Shown: positions 7,012-27,880 of the stretch, piece by piece
Layout of the letters: each line of letters starts with the position of its first letter
How positions within the stretch are numbered: position 1 is the first letter of the stretch
Source of the DNA: Polyangiaceae bacterium
GTDB taxonomy: Bacteria > Myxococcota_A > Polyangia > Polyangiales > Polyangiaceae
Assembly (NCBI GenBank): GCA_025353725.1
Contig: JANXOF010000065.1
Coordinates: 124,001 to 188,000 of the forward strand
Reading direction: 5' to 3'
Length of the DNA: 64,000 nt
Translations under genes and position numbers: made by a program
The notes under the pieces: model-generated
What the model was told of the DNA's origin: nothing
Databases searched by the model: none
What the model saw: the letters and a program-made list of their open reading frames with translations, nothing else

Positions 7012-7014
7012 CGC

Positions 7015-7740: not shown

Positions 7741-7758
7741 AGGGTACGGTACGTAGCT

Positions 7759-8733: not shown

Positions 8734-8739
8734 AAAGCG

Positions 8740-9096
8740 ATGGACCCGCGATTCCGAGCCAAGGCCCTTCGATCCCCCCGCGGCGCGAAAGTAAGCGAAA
8801 TCGATTGGGGTGACGGTCACCAAAGCGTGTATCCGCACGATGTTTTGCGTGGGTATTGCCCGTGCGCCGGCTGCCAAGGCCATGAAGGTACGATTAAGTT
8901 CGTCAAGCCCACGTCCGATATTCAAATGGAGCTCGACGCGATTGACCCGGTGGGCAACTACGCTCTTCAGCTCACGTGGTTCGACGGTCATTCGAGCGGC
9001 CTGTATTCGTATACGTACTTACGTGCACTCTGCCACTGTGACGTGTGCCGGCCGGGGGTCGCGAAGGAAGAGCGCGCCGAGCTCGCGCGTTCTTGA
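8740..9096 (+). CDS. DUF971 protein (gamma-butyrobetaine hydroxylase-like N-terminal domain)
   Basis: A 118-residue stand-alone DUF971 domain. It has the pattern DWGDGHQSVYPHDVLRGYCPCAGCQGHEG, quoted here as two motifs: WGDGHQSVYPHDVLR and CPCAGCQG, then LTWFDGHSSGLYSYTYLR and a terminal CHCDVC. In larger proteins this fold binds zinc or acts beside Fe-S/oxygenase domains; alone its role is unknown, with Fe-S cluster handling often suggested. Extra CHCDVC near the end adds two more cysteines. ATG start, 6 nt after the kinase and 3 nt before murJ. Confidence 0.85.
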   Translation: MDPRFRAKALRSPRGAKVSEIDWGDGHQSVYPHDVLRGYCPCAGCQGHEGTIKFVKPTSDIQMELDAIDPVGNYALQLTWFDGHSSGLYSYTYLRALCHCDVCRPGVAKEERAELARS

Positions 9097-9099
9097 AGC

Positions 9100-10764
9100 A
9101 TGAACGAGACGCGCGTAGAACCGGACGAAGCCCCGCGCGAAGCGTCACGTGCCACGGATGCTGCAGCGGACGGTAAAGCGGAGCGAGCGCGCGTTGTAAG
9201 GCGCGCAGGCGTGGTGGGCGCGGGGACGCTTGCTTCCCGCGCGCTCGGGTTCGTTCGCGACATGGTCATAGCCGCGCTTTTTACGCGCGCGGAGACCGAC
9301 GCGTTTGCCGTTGCTTTAACGATCCCCAACACGCTTCGTCAGCTCCTCGCGGAAGGCGCCGTCTCCAGCGCTGTCGTGCCCGTGCTCGCCGGGCGACTCG
9401 CTCACGGCGGCGACGCGGAAGGTCGCGCGTTTTTCGCTCGCGCGCGCGGCATTTCATGGGTTGTGCTCGCCTTCGTGTCGGTGCTCGGTGTGGCCTTCGC
9501 CGGGTCTCTCACGGAGGTTTTTGCGCCGGGGTTTCACAAGACGCCCGGTCAGTTCGAACGCACGGCGACGATGACCCGGTGGATGTTTCCGTACATCTTT
9601 TTCATGGGAACCGCGGCGCTCGGAATGGCCGCGCTCAACGCGAAGAAAAAATTCGCGGTCGCGGCGTTCGCGCCGGGTCTCTTCAACGTGGCGCTTATCG
9701 GCGCGGCGTTCGCCTTACGCGCGCCGCTGGCGTCGCGAGGCATTGACCCCTCACTCTCGCTCGCGGTGGGCGTGCTCCTCGGCGGGCTCTTGCAGGTGGT
9801 GGCGCAGGTGCCTGCGCTCAGGGCCGTAGGCTACGCGAGTCTCCCGAAGCTAGACCTTTCGGACCCCCACGTGCGCGAGATGTTTAGGCGGATTTTGCCC
9901 ATGACGCTGGGGCTCGGCGTCTACTATGTAGATATCACGCTTTCGCGTCGTTTCTTGTCGGAGTTTGGCGAGGGGCCGCCGAGTTACTTCTTTTGGGCTT
10001 CTCGACTATGCGACTTTCCGCAAGGCATCTTCGTCATGGCACTTTCGACGGCGGCGCTCCCGTCGCTCGCAACGTTTGCCGCAAATGGGAACGTCGACGA
10101 GTTCGTAAAAACGTGGGCTCACGGCCTTCGCCTTTCGCTCTTCGTGGCCGTGCCTTGCAGCGCGGCGCTCGTCGTTTTGAGCGAACCGCTCGTCGTGCTT
10201 CTCTTTCAGCGCGGCGAGTTCGACGCGTTCGCTGCTCAGCAGACGGCGCGCGCGCTCGCGTGGCAAGGGGGCGCTATTTTTACGGTGTCGGCGGTGCGCC
10301 AACTCGTGCCGGCGTTTCACGCGCTCGGTGACACGCGAACGCCGGTGGTCGTCAGCGCGCTCGACTTGGTCGCCTTTGTGGTCTTGGCGGTGACGCTCCG
10401 TGAACCGTACGGGCACGTGGGCGTGAGCATGGCCGTGGCCGGGTCGAGTGCGGTGCAGATGGGACTTCTTTTTCTCGGCTTAAAGCGCAAGCTTGGCAGT
10501 TTTCAAGCGGCAGAGCTTGGCGCATCGGTGGCGCGCATCGGTGTAGCGTCGTTGGTTGCGGCCGTGGCTGCCTGGGCGGCGGCGCGCGGCCTGTCCGGGC
10601 TCGGTTCAGGCGCGTTTGCTCGCGCCCTACCTGGTCTTTGCGCGAGCGTCGTTTTTAGTGCGCTCTATTTCGTCGTTGTCTGGCGCCTCGGTTCCCCCGA
10701 GCTTTCGGAGCTGGCGGGCCCTCTGCGTAACCGCTTCGCGCGCCGCTTCGCCCGTCGGGTGTGA
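9100..10764 (+). CDS. murJ: Lipid II flippase MurJ
   Basis: A 554-residue multi-pass inner-membrane protein that moves lipid II across the membrane for peptidoglycan synthesis. After a 35-residue charged N terminus it begins with VVGAGTLASRALGFVRDMVI, typical of MurJ helix 1, then the AVALTIPNTLRQLLAEGAVS segment with the conserved Arg and Glu. The RLCDFPQGIFVMALSTAALP stretch and the LLFQRGEFD loop are also family signatures. The length fits a 14-helix protein. It is part of the plus-strand run and may share a promoter with recO and DUF971. Confidence 0.95.
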   Translation: MNETRVEPDEAPREASRATDAAADGKAERARVVRRAGVVGAGTLASRALGFVRDMVIAALFTRAETDAFAVALTIPNTLRQLLAEGAVSSAVVPVLAGRLAHGGDAEGRAFFARARGISWVVLAFVSVLGVAFAGSLTEVFAPGFHKTPGQFERTATMTRWMFPYIFFMGTAALGMAALNAKKKFAVAAFAPGLFNVALIGAAFALRAPLASRGIDPSLSLAVGVLLGGLLQVVAQVPALRAVGYASLPKLDLSDPHVREMFRRILPMTLGLGVYYVDITLSRRFLSEFGEGPPSYFFWASRLCDFPQGIFVMALSTAALPSLATFAANGNVDEFVKTWAHGLRLSLFVAVPCSAALVVLSEPLVVLLFQRGEFDAFAAQQTARALAWQGGAIFTVSAVRQLVPAFHALGDTRTPVVVSALDLVAFVVLAVTLREPYGHVGVSMAVAGSSAVQMGLLFLGLKRKLGSFQAAELGASVARIGVASLVAAVAAWAAARGLSGLGSGAFARALPGLCASVVFSALYFVVVWRLGSPELSELAGPLRNRFARRFARRV

Positions 10765-13355: not shown

Positions 13356-13427
13356 GGGCGCATAACTCAGCGGTAGAGTGCGACCTTCACACGGTTGAAG
13401 TCGGGGGTTCAAGTCCCTCTGCGCCCA
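13356..13427 (+). tRNA. tRNA-Val (anticodon CAC)
   Basis: The cloverleaf is complete. Acceptor stem GGGCGCA pairs with TGCGCCC, the D stem is ACTC/GAGT, the anticodon stem CGACC/GGTTG encloses TTCACAC giving anticodon CAC, and the T loop is TTCAAGT. The discriminator base is A at 13427 and CCA is not encoded. It reads GTG codons. It lies between the dead PIN module and an IS remnant, and tRNA genes are common integration sites. Confidence 0.95.
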
Positions 13428-13891
13428 CGAGGTTTCGAGATTCTTGTTCGCGGTCGGCAAACCCTGGGAGGGAGCTGCACCTCTCCCCCACATCCTTGTT
13501 GCGTGCGTGCGCGCAGGCTCTTCTACACTTTTGATTCTGAGGTGGGGACTTCGGACATCGCGGGTCGGCGCAGAGGCCGAGTTGAGCGTTACCACCGGGG
13601 TTTGGAGTCACTGCCGGCGGAGTTCAGCCGCCCGCTGAACGTTTCCATTACGTCCCGGTCGGAGAGGGCCGAAGTCTCGCCCTCGGAGGCATCGACCCTC
13701 CTGCTTGCGAGGAGCTGGGCGAGGTGCTCGGCATCCAGCTGGTCGCGGGTCCGAACCAACAAATTCCATAGCTTGTCAACGTCGGCCTGATCCAGATGCC
13801 ACACCACCACTGCGAGGTAGAGCCTCGCGGGCGGCCGCGAACGCCTCGAGTAAGGCGCCCGTAGGCTCCGGCGAGAGGCGGGCTACACGGG
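13428..13891. other. Eroded region without a supportable gene
   Basis: Between tRNA-Val and the transposase tail I see no gene that I can support. A minus-strand open frame at 13589-13810 (73 codons, starting MVVWHLDQADVDKLWNLL) has a plausible protein-like composition but no family match or ribosome-binding site. A G-rich/C-rich imperfect hairpin at 13465-13490 resembles others in the window. Confidence 0.4.
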
Positions 13892-14353
13892 AGCCAGCAG
13901 CCGAAGGCAAAGAGTCTCCTCCACGAGATGATGAACGCAGCGACGAAGGCCGAGTGCGAGCGCCTGACGGCAACCTTCGCGACTGGCTACGAAGCGAAGT
14001 GTCCGAAGGCCGTGAAGTCACTCCAGACGCACTTCGACTTTCCCGCCGAGCACGGGAAGCGCCTGCGTACGACGAACCCGATCAAATCGACGTTTGCGAC
14101 GGTGAAGCTTCGTCAGCGTGTGACGAAGGGCGCAGGCTCGCGCAAGGCCGGACTCGCCATGGCCTACCGCTTGCTGCTCCTCGCTGAGGCAAGCTGGGGT
14201 CGCCTAAACGGACACGAACTCTTGCCGCTCGTCCGCGCCGGAATTTAGTTTCTCGATGGCGTTCGCGTCGAGCGCGCTCCGCTCGCGCCGGATGTCGACA
14301 CGATCAAGCCGCATAGGAAGACAAAGATTCAACCTCAGAAGGTCGCCGCTTGA
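13892..14353 (+). mobile_element. C-terminal remnant of an IS256-family transposase
   Basis: The frame reads QPKAKSLLHEMMNAATKAEC, then ATFATGYEAKCPKAVKSL, FDFPAEHGKRLRTTNPIKST, FATVKLRQRVTKGAGSRKAG and LAMAYRLLLLAEASWGRLN, the conserved end of IS256/Mutator transposases (usual text DFPAEHWKHLRTTNPIES). The N-terminal two thirds with the first DDE residues is absent. A TAG at 14246-14248 interrupts the frame, which continues FLDGVRVE to a second stop at 14351-14353. No terminal inverted repeats were recognised. This is a dead transposase tail. Confidence 0.85.
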
Positions 14354-15631: not shown

Positions 15632-16285
15632 GGCTGCCCCCTCGACGACTTGCTGTTCTTGTCTGCGTCACAACGCGAGCCGTTCCTGCGCTGGCGTTCC
15701 GGCGACTACGGCCCCATCCGCGAGTGCAGTCGAAGCGGTGAGCATCAGCAGCGCAGCCGCAGGCACGCGTGCGCAATTGCAAAGGCACAAAGAGAAACTC
15801 GTTGAGTGGTTGAACCAGCTTACCAGTTGCCCGCTCAGTCGTCCAGGTTGTGCTTGCCGGGCCGTGATGTTGCCGGCGTTGTTTAGAGGCGAGGCTCGTG
15901 TACGCCGGTGCCACTGCGACGGAGACGGGCACGGTAAGGGGACCAGGCTCAGCAAGAGCGCAACGCCTAGAGCACGGGGCGTAGCGTCGCGACGCTCGCG
16001 ATTTCCACGAGCTTCGCGCGCGCGCCGGCGACTTCGAGCACGTATCGGGTGCGTAGTTGATTCAAAGGCCTTCGAGGGGGGAAGGAGCTGCGCCTCCCTC
16101 CCGAGGCCCCCCTTGCGGGCGCGAGCTGAAGTGGACCCGAGGGTAGCTGCGAATACACTTGGGCGCCGAATGGGCGGTAGAGCGGAACTCGGCAACATTG
16201 AACTCCGACGCGACCGTCGAACGCCTCAATGCCTCAACGCGTCGAGCGCGTCGAGCGCGTCGTGCGCGTCGTTCGCGTGCGACGA
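15632..16285. other. Accessory region with repeats and no supportable gene
   Basis: Several long open frames exist on both strands but they have Arg/Ala/Ser-rich shadow composition and no motif. The region holds an imperfect G-rich/C-rich palindrome at 16075-16112 and a short 9-bp tandem repeat (cgcgtcgag type) at about 16239-16278. A broken signal-peptide-like frame lies on the minus strand at about 15670-15960. Confidence 0.4.
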
Positions 16286-16667
16286 TCAGACCCGGTGCAC
16301 GCGCGTGTTGGGAAAGCGCACGTCGCGTAGTCGTAAAAGGTCGTCCTCGTCGGAGGTGTACACAACGTCGCCCCGAAGAGGGGCCGAGACCATGACCATT
16401 ACGTCGACCACGGTGGCGAAAGGCACCGCGGCGAGAGCTTCGCCCGTGAGCTTGGCGAGGCGTTCGCTCAACGGCTCTACGTCGCACATCGTGAGAATCA
16501 GGGCGGCTCGGTGCGAGCCATTCCCGGACGCGCCACCACTCGGCGACGACGCTCGCGGGCACCGTCATGACGACGCGGTACATCGTCGCCTGGTGAATGA
16601 CCTTTGCCATTCGGGGGCTGCGTCGTTCAAGTGCGACAAGCGCGCCGGTGTCGAGCGTAATCCCCAC
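16286..16667 (-). pseudogene. Frameshifted PIN-domain toxin (VapC-like)
   Basis: From GTG at 16667 the frame encodes VGITLDTGALVALERRS and VMTVPASVVAEWWRVREWLA, the N-terminal half of a PIN nuclease with its first catalytic Asp and the conserved Glu. After about 16525 the PIN sequence continues in another frame: RAALILTMCDVEPLSERLAK, GEALAAVPFATVVDVMVMVS and GDVVYTSDEDDLLRLRDV, ending at 16286. One indel therefore separates the two halves. The start overlaps the stop of the antitoxin frame by one base (TAGTG). Confidence 0.8.
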
Positions 16668-17083
16668 TACCGCTTCGCCGCCGGCTTGCTGGGGTACCGC
16701 GTCGACAGCTTGCCATCGACGCGTGCCAGTGCACCCTTTACATCGGGTTTTCTCACCGTAATGTCGATATGCCTGGAGTGCGTCGCACGAGTGAGCGCGG
16801 CCTTCGCCGCCGTACGCCCCAAGCGAGCAAGCTTCTCGTCGAACGCGGCGTGCGGGCCGGTCTCTCACTCCGCGCGAATCGCTTCGGCTTCCTCAGGTGT
16901 GGGCACACCCTCGTAACCCGTCTCTTCGAGAAGTTGTCGCCGCGACTCCATTTGACGCTCGAAACGCAAGGCCTCCGTGAATAGGGCGGAGAGGCTCACA
17001 CCAGTCTTTTCACTACGCTGCTTCGCCCACCGAAGAAGGTCCTTGTCAGGGACGGAGATGCTCACTTTCGCCGCGCTCGACAT
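16667..17083 (-). pseudogene. Antitoxin of a decayed PIN module with an in-frame TGA
   Basis: ATG at 17083, preceded by GAGGTAGGAACG, encodes AKVSISVPDKDLLRWAKQRS and TGVSLSALFTEALRFERQME, a ribbon-helix-helix antitoxin. It stops at TGA (16865-16867) after EEAEAIRAE. The same frame then stays open for 65 more codons, rich in Lys/Arg, to a TAG at 16667-16669 that overlaps the toxin GTG. That junction suggests the original antitoxin ended there and that TGA replaced a Trp codon. Alternatively the 72-residue protein is complete and the rest is chance. Confidence 0.6.
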
Positions 17084-17154
17084 CGTTCCTACCTCGGTTA
17101 GGAGCCGTGACATGACGAGCACGGTCAAGCAAGCTCGCTCTCCCGGTTGCCGAA

Positions 17155-18144
17155 TCACGTCACATGAGGGGCCCGCTTCGCTTTGCCCACGGCTACGCGC
17201 TCGAAGCAGGCGGATTCTACCTTTTGCTTTTTGCGGATGAGCGCGCTCGAGAGAATGAACCGCGACGTTACCGGATCGTGGTAGCCACTCGCATCCGTCA
17301 GCGTTGCATCATGCACGCGATGGTAACTAATGACACGGCGCATGAGTAAATCGCGCGCCCACTTTCCGATGAGCGACGCTAAGCCGATGATGAGATGCGT
17401 ATCGTCGCCGTCGCGCACGAACGCAAGGCGCCCCACGCCAGGAACAGAGTATTCGCTTCGTGCTCGGCTCTCGAGCAAAACGGCGTGTAAGTAGCCCGCG
17501 AGAGGCCCAAAGTGACCGCCGTAGAAGTTGAACCCCCCGACCTTCCCGCAAAGTGCGTAAACCTCGTCGCCCGCCTCCTTGCGTGCCGCAAGCGTTAGCC
17601 GCTCCATCGTGTGAAGGTCGACATGAAAGCGCGAGAGTCCTCGGCTTGCGGCCTCGTTCAAGCGCTTCGTGCACACGATGGCCACGCGCCCGCTTCGTAT
17701 ACGCACGCCTCGTGCCTCGAGCCGGTCGAGATCGTTCAAGCATGTCGCTACGGCGTCGTCGCCCGACGCGAACGTTTCATGAGCCGTATTCCAACATAGG
17801 TCCACGTGATGCGACGGGCAGGGGGCTTCCAGGTCTCGTTGGGGGTCGAGCGCGAGCGCCCCGAGCAACTCGGCCGGGGTACGCGCGACAACGCCCGCGC
17901 GAGCCGCGAGCGCACGTGCCCACGCCTCGCCGAGAGCGCTGTTGCCGAAAGCGACGAGCTTTTTAGAGTCGCCGATCCGCGCGGCGACAGATCCCTTGGG
18001 GCGCGACGCGACAAGCCTCGCCCCGGCCTCGTCGACCTGAGCGAGAACGGCCGTGACGACGAGCGGACCGAGCCGCGGGCCCATGCCGTTCTCGTCGATA
18101 CCTACGTAGTACGGCGAGCTCCACGACGACTGCGCCTTGCTCAC
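17155..18144 (-). CDS. RNase HII-superfamily protein, divergent
   Basis: A 329-residue protein that opens like an RNase HII: YYVGIDENGMGPRLGPLVV has the catalytic DE(x)G motif (Asp17, Glu18), followed by RIGDSKKL with Asp59 of the GDSK motif. Later segments SLIGKWARDLLMRR and DASGYHDPVTSRFI resemble the asiiAKxxRD and DxGYGT regions of the family. The protein is longer than usual (about 200 residues) because of a middle insertion (about 95-215), and the motif reads GMGP instead of GRGP. It may cut RNA in RNA-DNA hybrids or have another nucleic acid task. Its ATG overlaps the upstream coiled-coil gene stop (ATGA). Confidence 0.7.
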   Translation of the reverse strand: MSKAQSSWSSPYYVGIDENGMGPRLGPLVVTAVLAQVDEAGARLVASRPKGSVAARIGDSKKLVAFGNSALGEAWARALAARAGVVARTPAELLGALALDPQRDLEAPCPSHHVDLCWNTAHETFASGDDAVATCLNDLDRLEARGVRIRSGRVAIVCTKRLNEAASRGLSRFHVDLHTMERLTLAARKEAGDEVYALCGKVGGFNFYGGHFGPLAGYLHAVLLESRARSEYSVPGVGRLAFVRDGDDTHLIIGLASLIGKWARDLLMRRVISYHRVHDATLTDASGYHDPVTSRFILSSALIRKKQKVESACFERVAVGKAKRAPHVT

Positions 18145-18860
18145 TTCGGAGCGACGAGCTTCGGGGATTGCTCCACCACCCGCGCGACGGCCTCCTGGCC
18201 GAAAAATTCGAGAACCGTTTGCACGCGAAGCTTTTGCTCGTTTGAGGCTTTGACGACACCTTGCTGCGTTTTGAGTTGAAGCTCCATGAGCTTTTTGATT
18301 TCGGCTATCTGCGACGACAGTTTGTCGATTTGCGTATTCGCGTCGATGAGAACGCTTTGCGTCTGGCGCTCGGCATGTTGGATATACGCCTCGAGCGCCT
18401 GAATCTCTTCGGCCGCGGTCTCGATAATCGCGTCAATCGGAATGCCAAATGCCCGGAGCGACGCCTCGACAATCTGTTTTCGCGTCTCTTTTGGTGTCTC
18501 ACCCGGGAGCGATTGCAAGAGTGAGAGCGTCCGATCGACGCGACCTTGGGCTTCGCTGCTGATTTGAGCCGATTGAAAGACCTGTTCGAACACGCGCGCG
18601 TCGGTCGGCGCGCCGGCGGCGACCGGAGGTAACGTTCCGGCCAGGCGCAGCGACGGTGGGGCGTGAGCGTCCGGCACCGGAGGCGGCGGTTTCCGTGTCG
18701 TCTGCGGCGCAACGCGTGGCCGTGGTGGCGCTTCGGCCGCTTCGCTCTCTAGCCCACGCTCGTCGTCGTGGTCCTCCTTGGCGCCTTCGCTCTCGTCGTC
18801 GTCGCCCTCGCGAACTACGAACCAGCCGAGCACAGTATCTCCGAGGTTCTTCTTCGTCAC
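18141..18860 (-). CDS. Coiled-coil protein of unknown function
   Basis: A 239-residue protein. The first 25 residues (GTG, TKKNLGDTVLGWFVVREGDD) are conserved-looking, followed by an acidic stretch and a Pro-rich linker, and from about residue 95 onward a long helical region with heptad pattern (IIETAAEEIQALEAYIQHAE, IDKLSSQIAEIKKLMELQLK). No signal peptide is present. GTG at 18860 is chosen because GGAGG lies just upstream; it is divergent from the next gene with 31 nt between starts. The stop overlaps the RNase HII-like start, suggesting co-translation. Function is unknown. Confidence 0.7.
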   Translation of the reverse strand: MTKKNLGDTVLGWFVVREGDDDESEGAKEDHDDERGLESEAAEAPPRPRVAPQTTRKPPPPVPDAHAPPSLRLAGTLPPVAAGAPTDARVFEQVFQSAQISSEAQGRVDRTLSLLQSLPGETPKETRKQIVEASLRAFGIPIDAIIETAAEEIQALEAYIQHAERQTQSVLIDANTQIDKLSSQIAEIKKLMELQLKTQQGVVKASNEQKLRVQTVLEFFGQEAVARVVEQSPKLVAPK

Positions 18861-18891
18861 ACCGACCTCCGTAAGGCCATCGTATGCTTGA

Positions 18892-19743
18892 GTGGTGAGT
18901 GGAAGCGCCAAAAAACGAGGTTCGTCCGAAGACCCGCCCTACGCGCGCTACGCGTTCCTAAACCCGTATAACCTCTCGTTGCTGATGGGCGCCGGCGCCA
19001 CCGCGGCCGCCACGGGCCATTGGTGGATCGCCGTCTGCGCGGGCGCGACCGAAGCGGTCTGGATGCTCTTTGCGCCTGACTCGGAGCTCCTTCGCCGCAC
19101 GTGGTTCGACGCGAAATGGGCGGAGTCAAAAACGTACGACGCCGAGCGCCGGCGCGAGCTCAAGTTCAGGACGCTTCTTCCGAACGATCAGCAGCGCGCG
19201 TTTCAGCTTCGGGAGCAGCGTACGCGCATCTATCAACTCGCTCAGGACAATCCGTCACTTACCGTCGAGCTCCTCGAGCCCGAGCTCGCAAAGCTCGACG
19301 CGCTTTACGAAGATTTTATCGACCTCGCGGCGGTGTGCGGGCGCTCCGAGAGGCACCTCGCGAGCTTTGACGTGCCTTCGATGCAAAAGAGCTGGAAGTA
19401 CTACGAAAGTCAGAAAAAGACGTTTCCAGCAAGCGATCAGCGCCACGAGGTCGCTTCGAAGAACCTCGAAGTCATCTCCCTCCGCATGCAACGCCTCGAG
19501 CAAGTGCGTAAGAACCTTCAGACGTCGCGTGGGCAGATGGATCTCATGGAGAACAGCCTTCGACTCCTCGCCGACGAGATCGTGACCGTCGCCGATCCGT
19601 CCGAGCTCGGAGGGCGCCTCGATGAGCTCCGCATCGGCGTGCAGGCCATTCGCGAAACGTCTCAAGAGTCCGAGATGCTCTACGAGGAGATTCTGGAGCT
19701 CGACGAAGCTCCCGCGCGCGCGGACGCGTCGCGGAGACGTTAG
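18892..19743 (+). CDS. Membrane-anchored coiled-coil protein of unknown function
   Basis: A 283-residue protein with two hydrophobic segments near the N terminus (NPYNLSLLMGAGATAAATG and WWIAVCAGATEAVWMLF, residues about 24-62) followed by a long charged helical domain (LEPELAKLDALYEDFIDLAA, MQRLEQVRKNLQTSRGQMDL). The layout is a membrane anchor with a cytosolic coiled coil. The GTG start lies 31 nt from the divergent coiled-coil gene, so the two probably share one promoter region. It converges with the ABC transporter operon. No family is recognised. Confidence 0.65.
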   Translation: MVSGSAKKRGSSEDPPYARYAFLNPYNLSLLMGAGATAAATGHWWIAVCAGATEAVWMLFAPDSELLRRTWFDAKWAESKTYDAERRRELKFRTLLPNDQQRAFQLREQRTRIYQLAQDNPSLTVELLEPELAKLDALYEDFIDLAAVCGRSERHLASFDVPSMQKSWKYYESQKKTFPASDQRHEVASKNLEVISLRMQRLEQVRKNLQTSRGQMDLMENSLRLLADEIVTVADPSELGGRLDELRIGVQAIRETSQESEMLYEEILELDEAPARADASRRR

Positions 19744-19749
19744 GAAGGC

Positions 19750-20562
19750 TCAGAGGTCGTGAAACTTCGAAGCGATCTCGTGCTCGAGCGCGACGAACTC
19801 GGGAAGTTCTTGCACGCCCGTACGCCACGCTAAGCCGCGGTCGACCATGTCGTACGTTTCGCGCACGCACGCTCCGGGAACGATCTTACCGTCTTTACGG
19901 AACCGCCCGAGCATGTGAACCGTGTCACTCACGGCGAGCGCCGCGCGGATATCGTGGGTCACCAGCACGACGGTATTCAGTTCGTCGAGGTGCGCAACCT
20001 CTTGAACGAGCTTCATGACATGGCCGAGCGCGGCCGGATCCAGTCCGCTAAATGGTTCATCCATGAGCACGAGCTGCCTCGGCCTCATGATTTGCTGCGC
20101 GATGGCCACACGCTGACGCTGACCGCCGGAGAGAAACGCCGGGTAAAACGAGGCGCGGTCCGAAAGGTTGAAGGTCTCCATCAGGAGCTTGGCGCGCGCG
20201 GCGGATTCGCCTTTGCTCATTCCCGCGATAGTCCCCGCGAGCTCGAGGTTGGCCTTTACGGTACGATGGTGAAGGAGCGGGTAATCCTGAAACACGTATC
20301 CGACGGTACCCGCGGGGAGTGCGGCACCCTTCTGCCCACGTACGGTGCCCGAGTCGGCCGCGTCGAGTCCGGCGATAATGCGGAGCAAGCGAGTCTTGCC
20401 TACGCCCGAAGGACCCAGCAGCGCGATAACCTGGCCCGTAATTTCACCCGTCCGGATTCGGTCGTGAACTTGAAACGAGATATTCTCCAACACCAAATGA
20501 CCGCCCAAGGTGAGACGCACTTTGGAGACGTCTAAAAGCACCTCGCCGTCGCTCGCACTCAT
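19750..20562 (-). CDS. ABC transporter ATP-binding protein (importer type)
   Basis: A 270-residue ATPase with Walker A GPSGVGKT, Q-loop YVFQDYPLLHH, signature LSGGQRQRVAIAQQ, Walker B LVLMDEPFSGLD and the H-loop VLVTHD, all intact. The type matches nitrate/sulfonate/taurine importers. The start is ATG 20562, whose ATGA overlaps the permease stop. It is the last gene of a three-gene operon (binding protein-OmpA fusion, permease, ATPase). The substrate is unknown. Confidence 0.9.
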   Translation of the reverse strand: MSASDGEVLLDVSKVRLTLGGHLVLENISFQVHDRIRTGEITGQVIALLGPSGVGKTRLLRIIAGLDAADSGTVRGQKGAALPAGTVGYVFQDYPLLHHRTVKANLELAGTIAGMSKGESAARAKLLMETFNLSDRASFYPAFLSGGQRQRVAIAQQIMRPRQLVLMDEPFSGLDPAALGHVMKLVQEVAHLDELNTVVLVTHDIRAALAVSDTVHMLGRFRKDGKIVPGACVRETYDMVDRGLAWRTGVQELPEFVALEHEIASKFHDL

Positions 20563-21347
20563 CGTGTGACTCGCCCGAGGTGTGCATGGGGACACAAGAG
20601 ATTCGTAAGGACTCCCATGGCGTAGTCGAGCGCAAGGCCAAGGACAAGAATGACGAAGAGAATCGCGTACACCTCGGCAAGCAGAAAGTGTCTATTCTCA
20701 TCGAGCAAAAGGGCGCCGATTCCGCCCTCTGCGCGGCTTATCCCTTCCACGGTCGTGATCATTGCCCAGCCCATCGCCACGTTTTGGCGAAGGACATCGA
20801 GCGCGCGGTCCAGCGTTCCGCGGACAACGACTTCCCAAAGAATCCGAACCTCGCCCGCTCCGAGTACACGCATGTGGTCAAATTGCACCCGTGGGATCTC
20901 AACGACGATCTGTGCCATTGAAGTCACGAAGAACGTGGCCATTCCGAACGTGAGCAGCGCCACTTTGAGCGCGTAGCCGCCGCCTGTCACGAGAGTGAAC
21001 GGAAACACGAGACCCGTGAACCCGAGAAACCGAAGCTTCGAGAGGCCCTCGACCAGTGGCCGAAAGAACGGAATCACCGTGAGGTAAGAAAGCAAAAGCG
21101 ACAACGCGACGGTGAGTGCCGTCGCGTGCGCAATGAGCCTTAGTGTCGTGAAGAGCTGCGGGCCCATCCCGCGTTCCCACCAAAGCGCGCCGAGTGCACG
21201 CCAAATGTCGCCTGGCATGGGCAGCGTTTTGAAGGGCATCGTGAGCCACACCGCGAATGTCGCCACCACCCAGAATACGACGATAAAACCCGTGGTTTTA
21301 CGGTCGAGAGTTCGATTGGGAAGGAAGGCCTCCGAGAGCTTTGCCAT
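20559..21347 (-). CDS. ABC transporter permease
   Basis: A 262-residue inner-membrane protein with about six hydrophobic segments (FIVVFWVVATFAVWLTMPF, TALTVALSLLLSYLTVIPFF, AEVYAILFVILVLGLALDYA). The EAA-type cytosolic loop, VRGTLDRALDVLRQNVAMGW, is the family coupling helix. The order binding protein, permease, ATPase on one strand is that of an importer. It begins 22 nt after the fusion gene and overlaps the ATPase gene by 4 nt. Confidence 0.88.
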   Translation of the reverse strand: MAKLSEAFLPNRTLDRKTTGFIVVFWVVATFAVWLTMPFKTLPMPGDIWRALGALWWERGMGPQLFTTLRLIAHATALTVALSLLLSYLTVIPFFRPLVEGLSKLRFLGFTGLVFPFTLVTGGGYALKVALLTFGMATFFVTSMAQIVVEIPRVQFDHMRVLGAGEVRILWEVVVRGTLDRALDVLRQNVAMGWAMITTVEGISRAEGGIGALLLDENRHFLLAEVYAILFVILVLGLALDYAMGVLTNLLCPHAHLGRVTR

Positions 21348-21369
21348 GGGGTCGTACGCGAGCCGGCGG

Positions 21370-23142
21370 CTACGTGCCGAGAACGATGACCACGCGGCGG
21401 TTCTTCGCGCGACCGTCGACGGAGGAGTTAGGCGCGACGGGTTCGGCCTGCCCGTGGGCGACGACCTTCACGCGGCCCTCAGGGAAGCTCGAGGGAGCGT
21501 TTTTTTCGAGCCAGGTCTTCACGGCAAACGCTCGGTCTTCAGACAACTTCAAGTTTGCATCGGCGGCGCCGGCGTTGTCGGTATGTCCGTGAATTTCGAC
21601 GATCGTGCCGCTCGCGACGACCAGATCGTTCAGTAGCTTTTTGAGCTCGCCAGTCGTGGCGGGACTGAACTCTGCGCTTCCCGTCGTGAACTGGATATCC
21701 CACGCCCGTCGACTCACGACGCTCGCAACTTTTTGGTCTGCCGAGAACTTCGGCATATCGGCGACTGACGTTGTTCCTTTGGCCTGTAGACTTTTCAGGT
21801 AAGACAAATCTTGGATTTGCTCAGCCGCCTGGAACGACGGAAACAGGCTTGGGTACTGCGATTTGACGACGTTGGCGAAGACCGTATAAGTCACGGCGAA
21901 CGCGTTGGTCGATCCCGGGACTAGCCCGAAGAGCTGGAGGTTGTCGGCGAGGTTATTGACCGACGAGCCGCCCAACTCGACGTCGACGCCCTTCTTGTCT
22001 TTCTGCACGACCACGCTGAAGTACTTATGCCAGTACGCGGCGTCTTTTTCTTTGTAGACGAACGCACTGACAGCTGCGGCGCGCCTTAGGGACTCGTCGC
22101 TCTTCTTGATGGCATCCCCTGCCTCGAAGAACGCCGCGAGCATGCCCTCGACGGTCGGCCGATTCGCCTCCATCCATTTCTTGTTGCCGATAATCACGTT
22201 CGGCATTTGAGAGCGGTATTCCTTCGTCGATACGATAGAAACAAGTCCGCCTTTTTGCTCCGACGCCGTCACGTCGCCGGGGGTCCACGTCACTACGCCG
22301 TCGACGCAGTGTTTTTCTTTCACGCCAGTCTTCGTGTTTTTTAGCTCGGCACAAAACCCGCTTACGTACTTTTGCGCGGCATCGACGAAGTCGCTGGCGT
22401 TTACCCAGTTGAGGGCGTCCGGGTCGTACGTCGACTCGTCGGGGTTGTTTGGAATCTTGTTATCCCCAAGCCACTTGAGAGCGATATTCCAGTCGCCGTC
22501 GCGTAACACTCCCGCGACAAGTCCACCTCGCGCGGCCTGCGGATTGGCCTTCCACGCGGCAGGGCCCATGAACTTGTCTTCACCGCGACTGTAGCCTGCA
22601 GAGCCCACGATCACGGCTTGGTAGTCGGGACCGAGCTTGCCTAATTTGTCGTTCAATCCTTTGAGAAACTGAGCCGACCCGTCGCCCATGACTGCGGTAA
22701 AGTGCGCGCCGTCTTTCGGCTGCGCTTGGCCTTTTTTCAGGCCTTCGCCGAACGCGACGAGCAGGCTTTGGAGTGTGTCGTTGTTGTCTTCGCGTACGAG
22801 CTTCAGGTTGACGCCGTGAGCGCACGCCATACTGCCCGCGACGGCTTGCTTTCCGCCGGCGGCGAGCATCATCCCCATCTGCGCGTTCCACGCCCAGTGA
22901 TAGAAGCGCACCTCGGGAAGATTCGCGCATCCCGCAGGCGCGTCGGTAATGGTCGGAAACCCGGCGCCCGCGCCCTCGTCGGGGAGCTTCGCGACGGGCG
23001 GAACGTTCGATGACAGCTGCGGCGCCGTGGGCGCAATTTTGCCAAAGAGCCCAGGATTGAGAGCGAGAATGCTGCCGGCGGCACCCACGACGACGACAGC
23101 GATGAAGACTTTTGCAGTGAGTGTCAGTCGAAAACGCGCCAA
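21370..23142 (-). CDS. ABC substrate-binding protein fused to a C-terminal OmpA-like domain
   Basis: A 590-residue protein with three parts. Residues 9-30 form a hydrophobic anchor with no clear cleavage site. Residues about 75-460 resemble a periplasmic binding protein of the NMT1/ABC type (VRFYHWAWNAQMGMMLAAGG, VKSQYPSLFPSFQAAEQIQD). Residues about 470-590 are an OmpA-like domain with VEIHGHTDNAGAADANLKLS and EDRAFAVKTWL, including the conserved Asp and Arg that bind peptidoglycan. The TTG start at 23142 is supported by GGAG 7 nt upstream. The fusion would tether a solute receptor to the cell wall, inferred. Solute is unknown. Confidence 0.85.
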   Translation of the reverse strand: MARFRLTLTAKVFIAVVVVGAAGSILALNPGLFGKIAPTAPQLSSNVPPVAKLPDEGAGAGFPTITDAPAGCANLPEVRFYHWAWNAQMGMMLAAGGKQAVAGSMACAHGVNLKLVREDNNDTLQSLLVAFGEGLKKGQAQPKDGAHFTAVMGDGSAQFLKGLNDKLGKLGPDYQAVIVGSAGYSRGEDKFMGPAAWKANPQAARGGLVAGVLRDGDWNIALKWLGDNKIPNNPDESTYDPDALNWVNASDFVDAAQKYVSGFCAELKNTKTGVKEKHCVDGVVTWTPGDVTASEQKGGLVSIVSTKEYRSQMPNVIIGNKKWMEANRPTVEGMLAAFFEAGDAIKKSDESLRRAAAVSAFVYKEKDAAYWHKYFSVVVQKDKKGVDVELGGSSVNNLADNLQLFGLVPGSTNAFAVTYTVFANVVKSQYPSLFPSFQAAEQIQDLSYLKSLQAKGTTSVADMPKFSADQKVASVVSRRAWDIQFTTGSAEFSPATTGELKKLLNDLVVASGTIVEIHGHTDNAGAADANLKLSEDRAFAVKTWLEKNAPSSFPEGRVKVVAHGQAEPVAPNSSVDGRAKNRRVVIVLGT

Positions 23143-23347
23143 TCGCTTACTCCGTTCGTTCGTTCGCGGGGTCCGGGCAGACGAAAACGAGCTGAGGCTA
23201 TCTTTACGACTCGATATCGGTCAACGACGGCTCGCCACACGGCCTTCTTTGTCGTGCTCCTCGCGTTCCGCGCGTCGATGCGTAGCCCGAGGAGCCTTTA
23301 CGTGGCTCCTGTCGGTTTGAACATGCGGGTCGATGTCGCCATCGCAT

Positions 23348-23368
23348 GGGGGCGCCAGCCCCCCTTTT
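23348..23368 (+). terminator. GC-rich hairpin with T run in the dksA upstream region
   Basis: GGGGGC pairs with GCCCCC across GCCA and is followed by CTTTT. It resembles an intrinsic terminator, but no plus-strand gene ends just before it; the divergent ABC operon starts at 23142. It may be an interspersed palindrome or attenuate a transcript leading into dksA. A weak promoter match TTGACC lies at 23400-23405 with no strong -10. The rest of 23143-23506 shows nothing else I can support. Confidence 0.35.
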
Positions 23369-23506
23369 GGGGCGAATGCAAAACTTCCGCTTTCCGGCGT
23401 TGACCTAAAGGGGCGCGATGTTTAAGGTCCTCCGCCCGAACGAAGGTAGTTACGCTCTTGGGCGGCAAAGCTCTCGAGTTACGAAGAAGGCGGACGAGGC
23501 AGTCGA

Positions 23507-23869
23507 ATGAACAAGGTTCAGCTCAAGAAGTTCAAGACGCTGCTCACCGAGAAGCGCGACGAGATCGTAAAGAAGGCGAAGCAGACCCTCGAAGAGGACA
23601 TGGCGCTCGACTCCAATGACCTCCCCGACGAAATGGACCTCGCGTCGAGCGAGTACCTCCAATCGTTCACGTTCCGGCTTCGCGGTCGCGAGAAGGGCTT
23701 CCTCGACAAGATCGAAAAGGCGCTTCGTCAGATTGAGGATGGCACGTTCGGAACGTGCGAGGAGTGCAGCGAAGAAATCTCGGTCAAGCGCCTCGAGGCA
23801 CGCCCGGAAACGACGCTCTGCATCCGTTGCAAAGAGGACCAAGAGCGCATGGAGAAGGATTACACCTAG
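23507..23869 (+). CDS. dksA: RNA polymerase-binding protein DksA/TraR family
   Basis: A 120-residue regulator that binds the RNA polymerase secondary channel and, with ppGpp, adjusts rRNA and amino-acid promoters. A long N-terminal coiled coil (FKTLLTEKRDEIVKKAKQTL) is followed by LPDEMDLASSEY with the acidic tip, then a four-cysteine zinc finger Cys84, Cys87, Cys105, Cys108 (GTCEECSEEI, LCIRCKEDQ). The length is normal for the short DksA type. ATG start. A strong hairpin follows 16 nt after the stop. Confidence 0.92.
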   Translation: MNKVQLKKFKTLLTEKRDEIVKKAKQTLEEDMALDSNDLPDEMDLASSEYLQSFTFRLRGREKGFLDKIEKALRQIEDGTFGTCEECSEEISVKRLEARPETTLCIRCKEDQERMEKDYT

Positions 23870-23885
23870 GCTGCAAGCAAACCCG

Positions 23886-23914
23886 TTGTGCGCCCCGTAT
23901 GGCTTGGCGCACAA
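23886..23914 (+). terminator. Intrinsic terminator-like hairpin after dksA
   Basis: A perfect 9-bp stem TTGTGCGCC/GGCGCACAA with an 11-nt loop starts 16 nt after the dksA stop. Flanking CCC and GGG could extend the stem. No T run follows. The gene position and stem strength support a terminator for dksA. Confidence 0.6.
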
Positions 23915-24252
23915 GGGGCCGCACTCGCTGACCCTCCCGTGGCTTGAGTTACGCGCATAGTAAATTAGTCCTACGTCCGAAGAGCCAGGCGGGGGCCCAG
24001 CGTGGAGGTAACGCCGGCCTCGAGCGCTCCAGTCGAGCGCTCCAGTCGAGCGCTCGAACAGAGCGAAGCACGCGGCGCCTGAGGGAGACGCACGCCAACA
24101 CGCGACGGTGGGCCACGCGATGCCACGAGCCGAGCGCCCTACGTAGTTCCGCGTATGGCGCGCGCATGGCTAGGCGTGGTCCCCTAGCGAGAGGTGATTA
24201 AGATGAAACGGAGCATTATTAAGCTTACCACTCCGGCCGAAAGCTGTTCAAC
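23915..24252. repeat. Intergenic region with a 13-bp direct repeat
   Basis: The stretch between the dksA hairpin and the uvrA end holds cgagcgctccagt repeated at 24021-24033 and 24034-24046 with a third partial copy to about 24056. I see no supportable gene; the open frames have Arg/Ser-rich shadow composition. uvrA converges from the right. Confidence 0.5.
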
Positions 24253-27171
24253 TTACGCGCCTCGCTCGGCGGCCTTCGATTTCGCGATCGCTGAGAATTC
24301 TCGATGCCGCGCGAGAACCGCTTTTAGGTAGTAACCGGTGTGGGAGCCGGGTGTGTCAGCGATGGTCTCGGGTGTGCCCTCTGCGATGACGGTGCCTCCC
24401 TTGTTCCCGCCGTCGGGGCCAAGGTCAATAACCCAGTCGGCGCACGCAATCACGTCGAGATTGTGTTCAATCACGACGACCGTATTGCCTTGACAGCGGA
24501 GGTCGAGGAGGGACGCGAGGAGCGGCTCGATATCGGTAAAGTGAAGCCCTGTCGTCGGTTCATCGAGAACGTAAAGCGTGCTGCCTGTTGCTCTCCGCGC
24601 CAGCTCTCGGGCGAGCTTGACGCGTTGCGCCTCGCCTCCGGAAAGCGTCGTGGCGGCTTGGCCAAGCGTGAGGTACCCGAGACCTACGCGCTTTAGCGCA
24701 TCGAGCCTTTCGCGCACCCGCGGAATGACGTCGAAGATGTCTCGCGCTTGCTCCACCGTCATCTCGAGCGCTTCGGCGATGGAGAGTCCGCGGTATTTCA
24801 CCTCGAGCGTCTCACGGTTGTAGCGCTTGCCTCCGCATGTCTCACACGTCACGAAGATATCCGGCAAAAAATGCATTTCGATGCGGAGGAGACCGTCGCC
24901 ACGGCACGCCTCGCAACGACCGCCTTTGACGTTGAACGAGAACCGACCCGGCTTGTAGCCGCGCGCGCGCGCCTCTGGCAACGCCGTGTAGAGCTCACGC
25001 AGAAGCGCGAACACGCCCGTATACGTGGCGGGGTTTGAGCGCGGCGACCGACCAAGGGGCGCTTGGTCGATGGAGACGACTTTGTCCAGCGCCTCAAGGC
25101 CCAAGACGGCGTCGCACGCGCCAATCTGCGCGGTGGACGAATAGAGTTTCGCGCGCGCAGCGGGGAGTAACGTGTCCACGATGATGCTCGATTTGCCACT
25201 CCCCGATACACCCGTAAAGCACGTAAAAAGCCCTGCCGGTATGTCGACGGAAATGTTTCTTAGGTTGTTCGCGCGCGCGCCGACAATGCGCACGACATCT
25301 GCCGACTTCGCCTTTCGCACGTCTGGGTGAGCCATTTGTTTCCGACCCGCGAGCCACGGTCCCGTGATCGACGCGGGGTTGTTCATAAGGTCCGCGGGCG
25401 TTCCCTCGGCGACGATCGTTCCCCCGTGGATGCCGGCGCCCGGTCCCATGTCTACGACGTAGTCGGCGGCCATGATGGCCTCGCGATCGTGTTCGACGAC
25501 AATCACGGTATTGCCTAGATCGCGAAGCCCTGCTTGCGCGCTTAGCAGGCGCTCGTTATCGCGGGCGTGAAGGCCGACAGACGGCTCATCGAGGACATAG
25601 AGCACGCCGACCAGAGCCGCGCCGATTTGGGTCGCGAGACGGATGCGCTGGCCCTCACCGCTCGAGAGTGTTTGCGCGCTTCGGTCGAGAGAGAGGTAAT
25701 CGAGCCCCACGTCGATGAGAAAGCCAAGACGCGCCGTTATCGCGACGACGAGTGGAGCCGCCACCGCGTGTTCGCGCGTCGTAAACGTCGCGTGCTCACG
25801 CGCCGACGCACCGTCCGTCCCGAGCTTCGATAAAAAAACAGAAAGCGATTCGAGCGGCATGCCGCCGAGCTCGGTGATGTCGTGCTCTCCGACGTGCACC
25901 GCGAGCGCCTCGGGTCGAAGCCGACGGCCGCCACACGCCGAGCATGTGCGTACGGCGACAAATCGACCTAGCTCGTCGTCCGCGATGGCGCCCTCATCTT
26001 CGTCCGGCTCGTCGTCTTCGCTTTCGGCGCGCGCGCGGTCTTGATTGCCGAGTCGCGTCTCGAGACGCGGAACCATGCCGACGTAGGGCTTTCGCTTGCC
26101 GCGTGCTTTGCTTGGTGTCAGGGGTTCGCCGAGGACAATCGCCTGTTTCGTCGCATCGTCGAGATTTGCCCAAGCGACGTCAGGGTTCACGCCGAGCGCC
26201 TCGACGGCGCGATTCAGCTCGGTTGCGAGAGCTACAGACGCTCGAAAACCCCATGCCAAGACGACGCCTTCGCGCAAGGTTCGTGCTGGGTCACCGATCA
26301 CGCGCGCAGGGTCAATCACGGTGCGTGCGCCAAGGCCGTCGCACGCCGGGCACGCGCCGTACGGGCCATTGAACGAAAACATGCGCGGCTCGATACGTGG
26401 CAGCGTGACGCCGCAATCCATGCATGAAAACCGCTCCGAGAGAGCAAAGGGATCCGCGCTCTCGGGGGCTATCAAGAGCCGTCCCTCACCGACCTTTAGG
26501 GCGAGCTCGACGCTGTCGGTCAACCGGCTTTTGATTCCCTCTTTGACGACGAGCCGGTCGACGACGACGTCGAGATCATGAGCCTTGGACGCGTCGATGC
26601 GCAGCACGTCTCCAAGGTCGACGATGACGCCGTCGACCCGAGCGCGGACGAAGCCATCGCGGCGAAGTTGCTCGAGCTCGGGGCCGAGAGCTCCTTGTCG
26701 TGCGCGCGCGACAGGCGCAAGGACGCTGAGACGCGAGCCCTCGGGCATGGCGAGCACGCGGTCGACCATCTGCTGCACGCTCTGCGCCTCGATTCGTTTA
26801 CCGCACTTCGGGCAATGTGGAATGCCCACCCGAGCGAAAAGTAGGCGCAGGTAGTCGGCGATCTCGGTCACGGTTCCCACGGTCGAACGCGGCGACTTCG
26901 ACAGCGGCCGTTGCTCGATGGCGATAGCGGGCGAAAGGCCGTCAATGCGGTCGACGTCGGGCTTCGCGAGCTGCTCGAGAAACTGCCGAGCGTAGGCGCT
27001 GAGCGACTCGACGTAGCGACGTTGCCCTTCCGCATAAATAGTATCGAACGCGAGCGACGACTTGCCCGAGCCGCTCGGTCCCGTAATCACGATGAGCTTC
27101 CCGCGCGGGAGCGTCACGCTCACGTTTCGCAGGTTGTGCTGGCGCGCGCCGACGACCACGAGACTACTCAT
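24253..27171 (-). CDS. uvrA: Excinuclease ABC subunit A
   Basis: The 972-residue damage-recognition ATPase of nucleotide excision repair, acting with UvrB. It has two ABC domains: Walker A GPSGSGKSSLAFDTIYAEGQ near the N terminus and GVSGSGKSSIIVDT later, signature motifs LSSGEGQRIRLATQI and LSGGEAQRVKLAREL, and zinc-finger cysteine pairs in both halves (CPKCGK, CSACGG, CEACRGDG, CETCGG). The UvrB-interaction insert CMDCGV...CPACDG is present. Length matches the family. The start is ATG. It is divergent from the Phd/VapC module with 98 nt between starts. Confidence 0.98.
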   Translation of the reverse strand: MSSLVVVGARQHNLRNVSVTLPRGKLIVITGPSGSGKSSLAFDTIYAEGQRRYVESLSAYARQFLEQLAKPDVDRIDGLSPAIAIEQRPLSKSPRSTVGTVTEIADYLRLLFARVGIPHCPKCGKRIEAQSVQQMVDRVLAMPEGSRLSVLAPVARARQGALGPELEQLRRDGFVRARVDGVIVDLGDVLRIDASKAHDLDVVVDRLVVKEGIKSRLTDSVELALKVGEGRLLIAPESADPFALSERFSCMDCGVTLPRIEPRMFSFNGPYGACPACDGLGARTVIDPARVIGDPARTLREGVVLAWGFRASVALATELNRAVEALGVNPDVAWANLDDATKQAIVLGEPLTPSKARGKRKPYVGMVPRLETRLGNQDRARAESEDDEPDEDEGAIADDELGRFVAVRTCSACGGRRLRPEALAVHVGEHDITELGGMPLESLSVFLSKLGTDGASAREHATFTTREHAVAAPLVVAITARLGFLIDVGLDYLSLDRSAQTLSSGEGQRIRLATQIGAALVGVLYVLDEPSVGLHARDNERLLSAQAGLRDLGNTVIVVEHDREAIMAADYVVDMGPGAGIHGGTIVAEGTPADLMNNPASITGPWLAGRKQMAHPDVRKAKSADVVRIVGARANNLRNISVDIPAGLFTCFTGVSGSGKSSIIVDTLLPAARAKLYSSTAQIGACDAVLGLEALDKVVSIDQAPLGRSPRSNPATYTGVFALLRELYTALPEARARGYKPGRFSFNVKGGRCEACRGDGLLRIEMHFLPDIFVTCETCGGKRYNRETLEVKYRGLSIAEALEMTVEQARDIFDVIPRVRERLDALKRVGLGYLTLGQAATTLSGGEAQRVKLARELARRATGSTLYVLDEPTTGLHFTDIEPLLASLLDLRCQGNTVVVIEHNLDVIACADWVIDLGPDGGNKGGTVIAEGTPETIADTPGSHTGYYLKAVLARHREFSAIAKSKAAERGA

Positions 27172-27269
27172 GCCACGCAGCCTAGTCGACTCCGCGCCAC
27201 GCGGTTGCCGCTCTAAATCAGGTGCAAAAGCAGTGGCGTCGGACCGCTTATGACCATAGACTTACGACC

Positions 27270-27497
27270 ATGGTTATCGCGGCACGAAAGATTCCGGCGG
27301 GCGAGTTTAAAGCCAAATGTCTCAGGCTTATCGACGAGGTCGCCACGAAAGGCGAGTTGGTGATTACGAAGCGCGGTCGGCCGGTCGCCAAGCTTGTTCC
27401 GTTCGAGGAAAGTGAGACCGCACCTCTCGAGGGCCTTATCGCTTTCGAAGGGGACCTTGTTTCGCCCATCGGCGACGCGTGGGACGCCGCCACGTGA
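27270..27497 (+). CDS. Phd/YefM-family antitoxin
   Basis: A 75-residue antitoxin whose N-terminal AARKIPAGEFKAKCLRLIDE and the strand ELVITKRGRPVAKLVPFEES are typical of the Phd/YefM fold, which binds its own promoter and neutralises the partner toxin. The C-terminal part is acidic and should wrap the toxin. ATG at 27270. Its TGA overlaps the toxin ATG (TGATG), so translation is coupled. A short repeated gaccat lies just upstream and may be part of an operator. Confidence 0.88.
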   Translation: MVIAARKIPAGEFKAKCLRLIDEVATKGELVITKRGRPVAKLVPFEESETAPLEGLIAFEGDLVSPIGDAWDAAT

Positions 27498-27880
27498 TGG
27501 TTCTCGACACGCACGCCTGGGTTTGGTGGTGCGCGAATCGCTCAAAGTTTCATGCGAGAACTTTGCTCGCGTTGGACAACGAGGAAGAGCTCTTTGTGTC
27601 AGCGATTAGCGCGTGGGAAGTGTGCATGCTGGTCGCCAAAGGTCGACTCACGTTCACGCGCGCGCCGCGCTCGGCGATTCGAGCGCTCACGTCAGCGCCG
27701 CGTATCCGCATGGTGCCAGTGAGTGACGCCATCGCGGTGGAGGCGGGACTTCTGGGCGACAAGCTTCACGGCGACCCCGCCGATCGCCTTGTGGTCGCTA
27801 CCGCTTTAGATTTGAGAGCCAAGCTCGTGACGAAAGACCGAAAAATCGCAGAGTCCAACCTTGTGCCCGTGCTTTGGTAA
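27497..27880 (+). CDS. PIN-domain toxin (VapC type)
   Basis: A 127-residue ribonuclease toxin partnered with the Phd-type antitoxin. Likely acidic catalytic residues are visible: Asp4 in VLDTHAWVWW, Glu41 in ISAWEVCM, Asp96 in GDPADRLVVATA and Asp114 in VTKDRKI. The PIN family uses these to hold magnesium and cleave tRNA or rRNA. The coding frame is intact and begins immediately at the antitoxin stop, so this module looks functional, unlike the two in 12.5-17.1 kb. Confidence 0.92.
   Translation: MVLDTHAWVWWCANRSKFHARTLLALDNEEELFVSAISAWEVCMLVAKGRLTFTRAPRSAIRALTSAPRIRMVPVSDAIAVEAGLLGDKLHGDPADRLVVATALDLRAKLVTKDRKIAESNLVPVLW

Follow-up and report, generated by a model that had tools for sequence, protein, structure and literature searches.

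A predicted cell-wall-tethered ABC importer recurs with two coiled-coil proteins in a candidate envelope module

Introduction

The closest described relatives of the locus reported here are known from comparative genomics. A passage in Ravi et al. 2024 (mSystems, PMC11237479) describes operons in which PspA, TM-Snf7 and AAA+ genes occur with an ATP-binding cassette (ABC) ATPase, a permease and PBPB-OmpA. Here we analyzed a 64,000-nucleotide stretch of a Polyangiaceae genome (assembly GCA_025353725.1, contig JANXOF010000065.1; hereafter the window), in which five genes at 18141–23142 encode an ABC importer, whose solute-binding protein (SBP) is fused to an OmpA-like domain, and two coiled-coil proteins, CC1 and CC2. 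An earlier note made from the sequence had presented this set as a candidate undescribed envelope system. That claim of novelty has to be given up, as the larger form of the system has its short passage in Ravi et al. The operons of that passage share with the window the OmpA-fused binding protein together with an ABC ATPase and a permease, and share with Acidobacteriota and some Myxococcota relatives of the window the PspA-like and AAA+ genes. In contrast, the window's locus carries neither PspA nor AAA+, and its genome lacks the AAA+ gene of the cassette.

Results

Gene calls placed the following features at the locus:

21370–23142, minus strand: SBP-OmpA, the receptor, with a predicted anchor at about residues 12–28, a divergent NitT/TauT-type binding region and an OmpA domain at residues 485–582
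20559–21347, minus strand: ABC permease, TauC/NtrB/SaoP-like by weak NCBIfam and sub-threshold Pfam matches
19750–20595, minus strand: ABC ATPase with intact Walker A, signature, Walker B and H-loop (PF00005, E 1e-24, and motifs)
18892–19743, plus strand: CC2, an N-terminal hydrophobic hairpin followed by a long coiled-coil domain, predicted cytoplasmic (AlphaFold2 and alignment)
18861–18891, no strand: 31-nucleotide (nt) spacer from the CC1 start to the divergent CC2 start (sequence)
18141–18860, minus strand: CC1, predicted soluble, with a disordered start of about 80 residues, three short helices and a 90-residue helix (AlphaFold2)

The importer genes run SBP-OmpA, permease, ATPase, with the mechanical open reading frames (ORFs) of permease and ATPase overlapping. 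CC2 converges on the ATPase gene, their stops lying 6 nt apart, and diverges from CC1. These calls bore out the coordinates and the arrangement given in the earlier note, namely an importer, a convergent CC2 and a CC1 divergent from it over 31 nt.

We then asked how often the five families occur together. An SBP pattern scan of one genome per species (84,980 species) returned 32 loci, all titled Myxococcota (or older names), Acidobacteriota or Armatimonadota. Together with the window, these make up 33 rows in 32 genomes, as L042 and L050 belong to a single genome. CC2 was found within the locus in 27 of the 33 rows and CC1 in 18, several misses falling at contig ends; among the genomes without CC2 at the locus (L019, L025, L029, L046 and L047), four carry it elsewhere. 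In Minicystis rosea (L022), the five genes are collinear, with a 4-nt overlap of the mechanical ORFs at both the ATPase/CC2 and the CC2/CC1 junctions.

Co-occurrence was counted across 283 sampled Myxococcota genomes, where SBP was present in 8, CC2 in 36 and CC1 in 18. All eight SBP genomes contained CC2 and four contained CC1. Inspection of CC2 regions from SBP-free genomes revealed a sister importer, present in 25 genomes at E ≤ 1e-85, a cut-off set after the list had been seen, and in 33 at 1e-40. Taking strong matches to importers of both kinds together, CC2 was present in 31 of 33 genomes (hypergeometric 8.6e-34), spread over 14 family codes, and in the remaining two (G109 and G302) CC1 adjoins the receptor gene; every CC1 genome (18/18) has an importer. 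At a laxer cut-off, CC2 accompanied the importer in 32 of 38 genomes (hypergeometric 8.4e-32). Only first-importer loci had gone into the CC2 profile, so that the presence of CC2 beside the sister importer counts as independent support.

Adjacency followed the same pattern, as CC2 adjoins importer genes in 30 of the 36 CC2 genomes. This count includes G172, with a receptor-like gene of 214 bits only and no permease or ATPase label, and G262, with permease and ATPase only, the receptor lying elsewhere or lost at a contig end. In L061, L077, L080 and L081, a non-overlap filter hid CC2, which was placed there from the profile search. CC2 is not beside an importer in G035, G072 (a weak CC2 match), G104, G195, G263 and G275; in G104 and G263, the importer is located elsewhere in the genome.

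The linkage of the five families is thus far above chance. Mere neighborhood by chance, or a link through shared regulation only, would agree with the window's divergent and convergent layout, which is not a single operon, and with the separate contigs that hold importer and coiled-coil genes in two genomes (those of L019 and L025). Against it stand the co-occurrence and adjacency counts and the collinear operon of Minicystis rosea; the counts rule out a chance neighborhood as such, and we regard this explanation as a whole as extremely unlikely. The earlier note had wanted a neighborhood survey of the five families, and in that survey the coiled-coil genes do co-occur with the importer elsewhere. 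Co-occurrence, adjacency and linkage in three phyla together identify the five families as a recurring unit.

In several lineages, this unit is embedded in a larger cassette. PspA lies beside SBP in 9 of the 11 Acidobacteriota loci (exceptions, L031 and L041), and eight Acidobacteriota loci follow the order CC1-PspA-SBP-permease-ATPase-CC2-AAA+, several being cut by contig ends; L049 reads CC1-PspA-AAA-SBP-permease-ATPase-CC2. Pfam recognized the additional genes of the Acidobacteriota cassette as PspA_IM30 (3.3e-15 and 1.5e-19) and AAA (1.1e-20 and 5.8e-27). All seven genes occur with the sister importer in four Myxococcota genomes (G008, G010, G220 and G280). AAA+ joins importer and CC2 in 9 of the 36 CC2 genomes, and clusters with PspA outside the importer locus in G068, G296, G304, G315 and G316. 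Loci were labeled with score floors of 60 bits for ATPase, 250 for AAA and 40 for PspA; locus gene calls were partly heuristic, and the PspA and AAA+ labels in Myxococcota came from home-made profiles. Because loci labeled with the five genes but with neither PspA nor AAA+ were found repeatedly (for example, L055, L056, L062 and L075), we consider the importer with CC1 and CC2 to be the core.

The window belongs to the simpler form. Its genome, a 6.6-Mb draft, encodes two PspA genes, both on contigs other than that of the locus, and its best match to the cassette AAA+ is 1.1e-27, compared with 3.5e-169 to 1.5e-256 for true members, which were found in five of 17 genomes searched. Cassette AAA+ is likewise absent from G001, G007, G012, G014, G020, G291, G303, Minicystis and the genome of L023, and two Armatimonadota genomes gave only matches of about 130 bits.

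Some loci contain further genes. In the Armatimonadota locus L048, a GP30.3-like protein (13504–13965; PF08010, 3.5e-54) is encoded between ATPase and CC2. Genes of 421–481 residues lie at or soon after the ATPase in L028 (13402–14739), L042 (2955–4220) and L046 (11130–12575); they gave no Pfam match at E ≤ 0.05.

We next characterized the importer. The OmpA domain of the receptor is well supported (PF00691, E 1e-17), and the binding half on its own gave a weak NMT1_2 match (E 0.045). A 29-member receptor profile, which had no match of note in the PDB, aligned with the sister subfamily over 401 columns (hhalign 98.6%, E 6e-16). The sister subfamily in turn matches TauA in the PDB (E 5.8e-17), with Pfam NMT1 in eight of nine members scanned and an OmpA domain in all nine. 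Judged from its sequence, the receptor is of the taurine/sulfonate (NitT/TauT) type by descent, since its profile matches the sister subfamily and the latter matches TauA.

An N-terminal hydrophobic anchor without a lipobox was present in 29 of 29 rows whose N-terminus was examined, and the Asp and Arg of the OmpA domain were kept in 31 of 31 rows (28 by pattern, three by eye). We take these two residues to be the contacts to diaminopimelate (DAP) in peptidoglycan. These sequence signals suggest that the receptor is attached to the inner membrane as well as to the cell wall, in support of the double anchoring proposed in the earlier note. MotB, TssL, PomB and ZorB sequences or profiles match its OmpA part, and its topology would correspond to that of MotB, except for the receptor between the two anchoring ends. 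In L046, SBP forms a tandem pair (6068–9186), the first copy of which stops without an OmpA domain.

The permease scored below the Pfam threshold (PF00528, 22.6 bits against a cut-off of 26.4) and matched the NCBIfam models SaoP (1.4e-7), NtrB (8e-4) and TauC (1.2e-3). It accompanies SBP in 30 of 33 rows, and the three misses (L029, L044 and L050) are loci that end at or within the SBP gene. Taurine and sulfonate ATPases are among the matches of the ATPase, whose motifs in the window read GPSGVGKT, LSGGQ, LVLMDEP and THD; across 28 rows, among them the window, each of the four is kept in 27 or in all 28.

These properties would suit an ordinary taurine- or sulfonate-type importer with no stress role, in which OmpA keeps the receptor near the permease and the coiled coils place or cluster the transporter. 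The intact ABC motifs and the recurring five-gene sets favor such an explanation. The receptor is also the most conserved component, with a mean column identity of 68% compared with 33% for CC2 and 37% for CC1, which fits a conserved ligand, although the loci were found through the receptor and the comparison therefore favors it. However, PspA and AAA+ genes lie within the same operons in several lineages, and two far-apart importer subfamilies, which likely bind different ligands, are associated with one CC1/CC2 lineage. On balance, we consider a plain importer possible but doubtful.

The second of these objections comes from the history of the coiled-coil proteins. A careful CC2 tree was built from 54 rows, after four long-branch rows (L060, L065, L067 and L078) were dropped from 58. 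In this tree, the window's clade joins first L053 and L063 (100/99) and then L051, L052 and L071 (100/99). All five of these loci carry PspA and AAA+, and four of the five carry the sister importer. The importer subfamily changes at least five times on the careful tree, and the starred branches of a quick CC2 tree alone force three to four changes. Byssovorax and Labilithrix are among the nearest CC2 rows of the window. The CC1 tree agrees, nesting the window's CC1 among full-cassette loci in a 15-row clade (SH-aLRT 99). As both trees group the window with cassettes of the other importer subfamily, importers appear to have been exchanged under their coiled-coil partners. L063 has the order CC1-PspA-CC2-AAA without an importer, and a first-type importer lies on another contig of the same genome (G104), an apparent in-between state of such an exchange. 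In the window's lineage, the scaffold would have been retained, the importer exchanged and the PspA–AAA pair lost, a direction that we infer from an unrooted tree.

We then examined the coiled-coil proteins themselves. The AlphaFold2 model of CC2 is almost wholly helical (mean predicted local distance difference test (pLDDT) score 86). Its hairpin is an uncharged stretch of 29–44 residues in 23 of 27 rows of the alignment and of 19–24 residues in the remaining four, with basic residues flanking it at each end. In the window, its hydrophobicity is no more than moderate, the best 17-residue Kyte–Doolittle (KD) value being 1.56 and no 19-residue span reaching 1.3; it is more evident in relatives. 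CC1, aligned in 18 rows, was modeled with its long helix at pLDDT 80 and begins with a disordered, acidic and proline-rich segment. No hydrophobic segment was found in CC1. This, with the basic residues around the CC2 hairpin, makes it most likely that both coiled coils are cytoplasmic. No relationship between CC1 and CC2 was detectable.

Several assignments were tried and set aside. PDB profile searches gave nothing below E 0.04, and VIA-align matches stayed in the helical-bundle range, so that neither protein was assigned to a known fold. A tellurite-type system of the TelA/XpaC kind, the first guess for two coiled-coil proteins beside an OmpA receptor, was rejected, as none of the 27 CC2 or 18 CC1 members matched TelA or XpaC; literature searches under these names found no such importer. 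For anti-phage defense, the search yielded ZorB matches to the OmpA part, a 16.8-bit match for CC1 and no assembled defense system; the AAA+ of a relative gave IetA/TRIP13-like matches.

A further possibility is that CC2 itself, perhaps together with CC1, belongs to the ESCRT-III-like filament proteins, the module being a membrane-remodeling machine loaded by the importer. CC2 may correspond to the "Snf7 homolog with a TM segment" in the passage of Ravi et al. (PMC11237479). In structural comparison, CC2 scored Z 8–10 against BAR domains and Z 8.2 against Asgard ESCRT-IIIB (root-mean-square deviation (rmsd) 4.8 over 104 residues), and among the matches listed for CC1, 10 of 50 were ESCRT-III/Vipp1 chains (Z 4.5–5.5, rmsd mostly 9–15). 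Helical proteins commonly reach such Z values, however, and the best match of CC2 is a designed repeat protein. Foldseek with CC2 returned nothing at E ≤ 0.001. Profile comparison detected no kinship of CC1 or CC2 to the cassette PspA (hhalign 10.7% and 1.6%), nor did any of the 27 CC2 or 18 CC1 members match Snf7 or PspA in Pfam at E ≤ 0.01. We judge ESCRT-III-like filaments to be a rather unlikely identity for these proteins, although they may be distant kin of the ESCRT-III/PspA superfamily.

The earlier note had also placed a shared promoter between CC1 and CC2. Both genes start with GTG (18860 and 18892), and GGAGGT lies 4 nt upstream of the CC1 start; the starts were chosen from sequence, and the mechanical CC1 ORF extends to 18911. 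The divergent order recurs in L020, L021, L043 and L069. A scan of 17000–24200 found no sigma-70-like site in the 18861–18891 gap, its sole site falling within the SBP gene with 1.2 expected by chance, and the CC1–CC2 intergenic DNA aligned poorly among five divergent loci. These two results gave no support to a shared promoter.

Outside the five genes, an RNase HII-like gene (17155–18144, minus strand; PF01351, 5.9e-9, far under NCBIfam equivalog cut-offs) shares the first 4 nt of its reading frame with the end of CC1. It was rejected as a sixth member, having no homolog in the ORFs of L014–L050. On the other side, a DksA-family gene (23507–23869, plus strand) diverges from SBP; no DksA match was found in the loci of five relatives (L014–L018). 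It is followed by UvrA (24253–27171, minus strand) and by a Phd/YefM antitoxin (27222–27497) and a PIN-domain toxin (27479–27880), both on the plus strand and assigned by Pfam. Upstream, 16062–17158 (minus strand) is, by a resemblance we assume, a possible second antitoxin/PIN-toxin pair; its ORF 16062–16868 had no Pfam match and ORF 16865–17158 only a weak DUF6364 match. A tRNA-Val gene lies within 13356–14248 (plus strand), followed by a transposase-like fragment, presumably of IS256 type, without a Pfam match.

Discussion

In this study, we propose that the five genes constitute an envelope-maintenance module, in which a wall-tethered importer or receptor signals to, or docks on, a membrane scaffold. 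We hold this proposal with evenly balanced confidence. It follows from the composition of the loci, as the most constant parts are a putatively tethered importer and presumably cytoplasmic coiled coils and the optional part consists of membrane-protection genes. The PspA and AAA+ genes in the operons of relatives lend it indirect support.

The module might work as follows. The receptor would be anchored in the inner membrane by its N-terminus and to peptidoglycan by its OmpA domain, and would present a bound small solute to an importer with a single permease and a single ATPase. CC2, through its membrane hairpin, and soluble CC1 would form a cytoplasmic scaffold of coiled coils. This scaffold would dock on the importer, whose ATPase or conformational state would act as its switch. 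In other lineages, the scaffold's partners would be an AAA+ remodeler and a dedicated PspA-like protein, both from the same operon; in the window's lineage, importer and scaffold would act alone, perhaps borrowing the products of the two PspA genes on other contigs. Each step of this scheme, from the formation of a complex to switching and the protection of the membrane, is putative.

Several observations weigh against the envelope-maintenance proposal. Both PspA genes of the window's genome lie apart from the locus and the cassette AAA+ is missing, and CC1 and CC2 belong to no consistent Pfam family (27 CC2 and 18 CC1 members). CC1 was undetected in half of the sampled SBP genomes, as well as in the 10-kb flanks of L027 and L028, and L046, alone among nine importer genomes searched, has no CC2 match. 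In the L019 and L025 genomes, the importer is split from the coiled-coil genes by contig. Weak importer matches occur with neither CC2 nor CC1 in G069, G115, G118 and G215, and CC2 occurs with no importer match in G035, G072, G195 and G275. The co-occurrence counts also come from genomes that share ancestry, many of them draft assemblies.

A bolder version of the proposal is a modular platform: one CC1/CC2 scaffold would accept exchangeable wall-tethered importers, each perhaps with its own ligand, and pass their state to the PspA/AAA+ machinery where present. The receptor could then gauge both solute and the distance from membrane to wall, as a MotB-like gauge of strain and solute. We think this version unlikely, though worth stating. 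If the envelope-maintenance proposal is true, solute import would be tied to membrane protection through a cell-wall tether. Two coiled-coil partners can be named for such a link, CC2 being present nearly always and CC1 often, and both persist where PspA and AAA+ are absent. Minicystis rosea DSM 24000, with its five genes in series, makes testable a role known from comparative genomics only.

Comparison with known systems delimits the locus on several sides. As in TauABC and SsuABC, it combines a receptor related to TauA/SsuA, through the sister subfamily, with a weakly TauC/NtrB-like permease and an ATPase that matches theirs; unlike in these importers, the receptor is OmpA-fused and anchored, and coiled-coil partners are encoded. 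The receptor resembles MotB, PomB, ZorB and long TssL in its N-terminal membrane anchor and C-terminal OmpA-like domain, whereas it differs from them in the solute-binding region between the two and in neighboring an ABC permease instead of a MotA-like channel. With the classical Psp response (PspA, PspF, PspB and PspC), the larger cassettes have a PspA-family member in common, in contrast to the PspA-free locus of the window; PspB, PspC and PspF were not among the neighbors scanned, and no search by name was made.

The operons of Ravi et al. are the nearest match. The text of their passage does not identify CC1, and their TM-Snf7 compares with the window's CC2 in that the latter has a hairpin but no Snf7 profile match. 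Nothing on this importer was found in an excerpt of PMC9239133, and searches of the open-licence literature turned up no report of the five-gene form, of a frequent CC1, of importer exchange or of the co-occurrence counts. As far as these passages go, the kind of system is already known from comparative genomics, and what is new is the PspA- and AAA-free five-gene core, CC1 as a frequent member, the exchange of importers and the counts. Seen next to them, the locus appears to be a simpler form of an envelope system of which little has been described.

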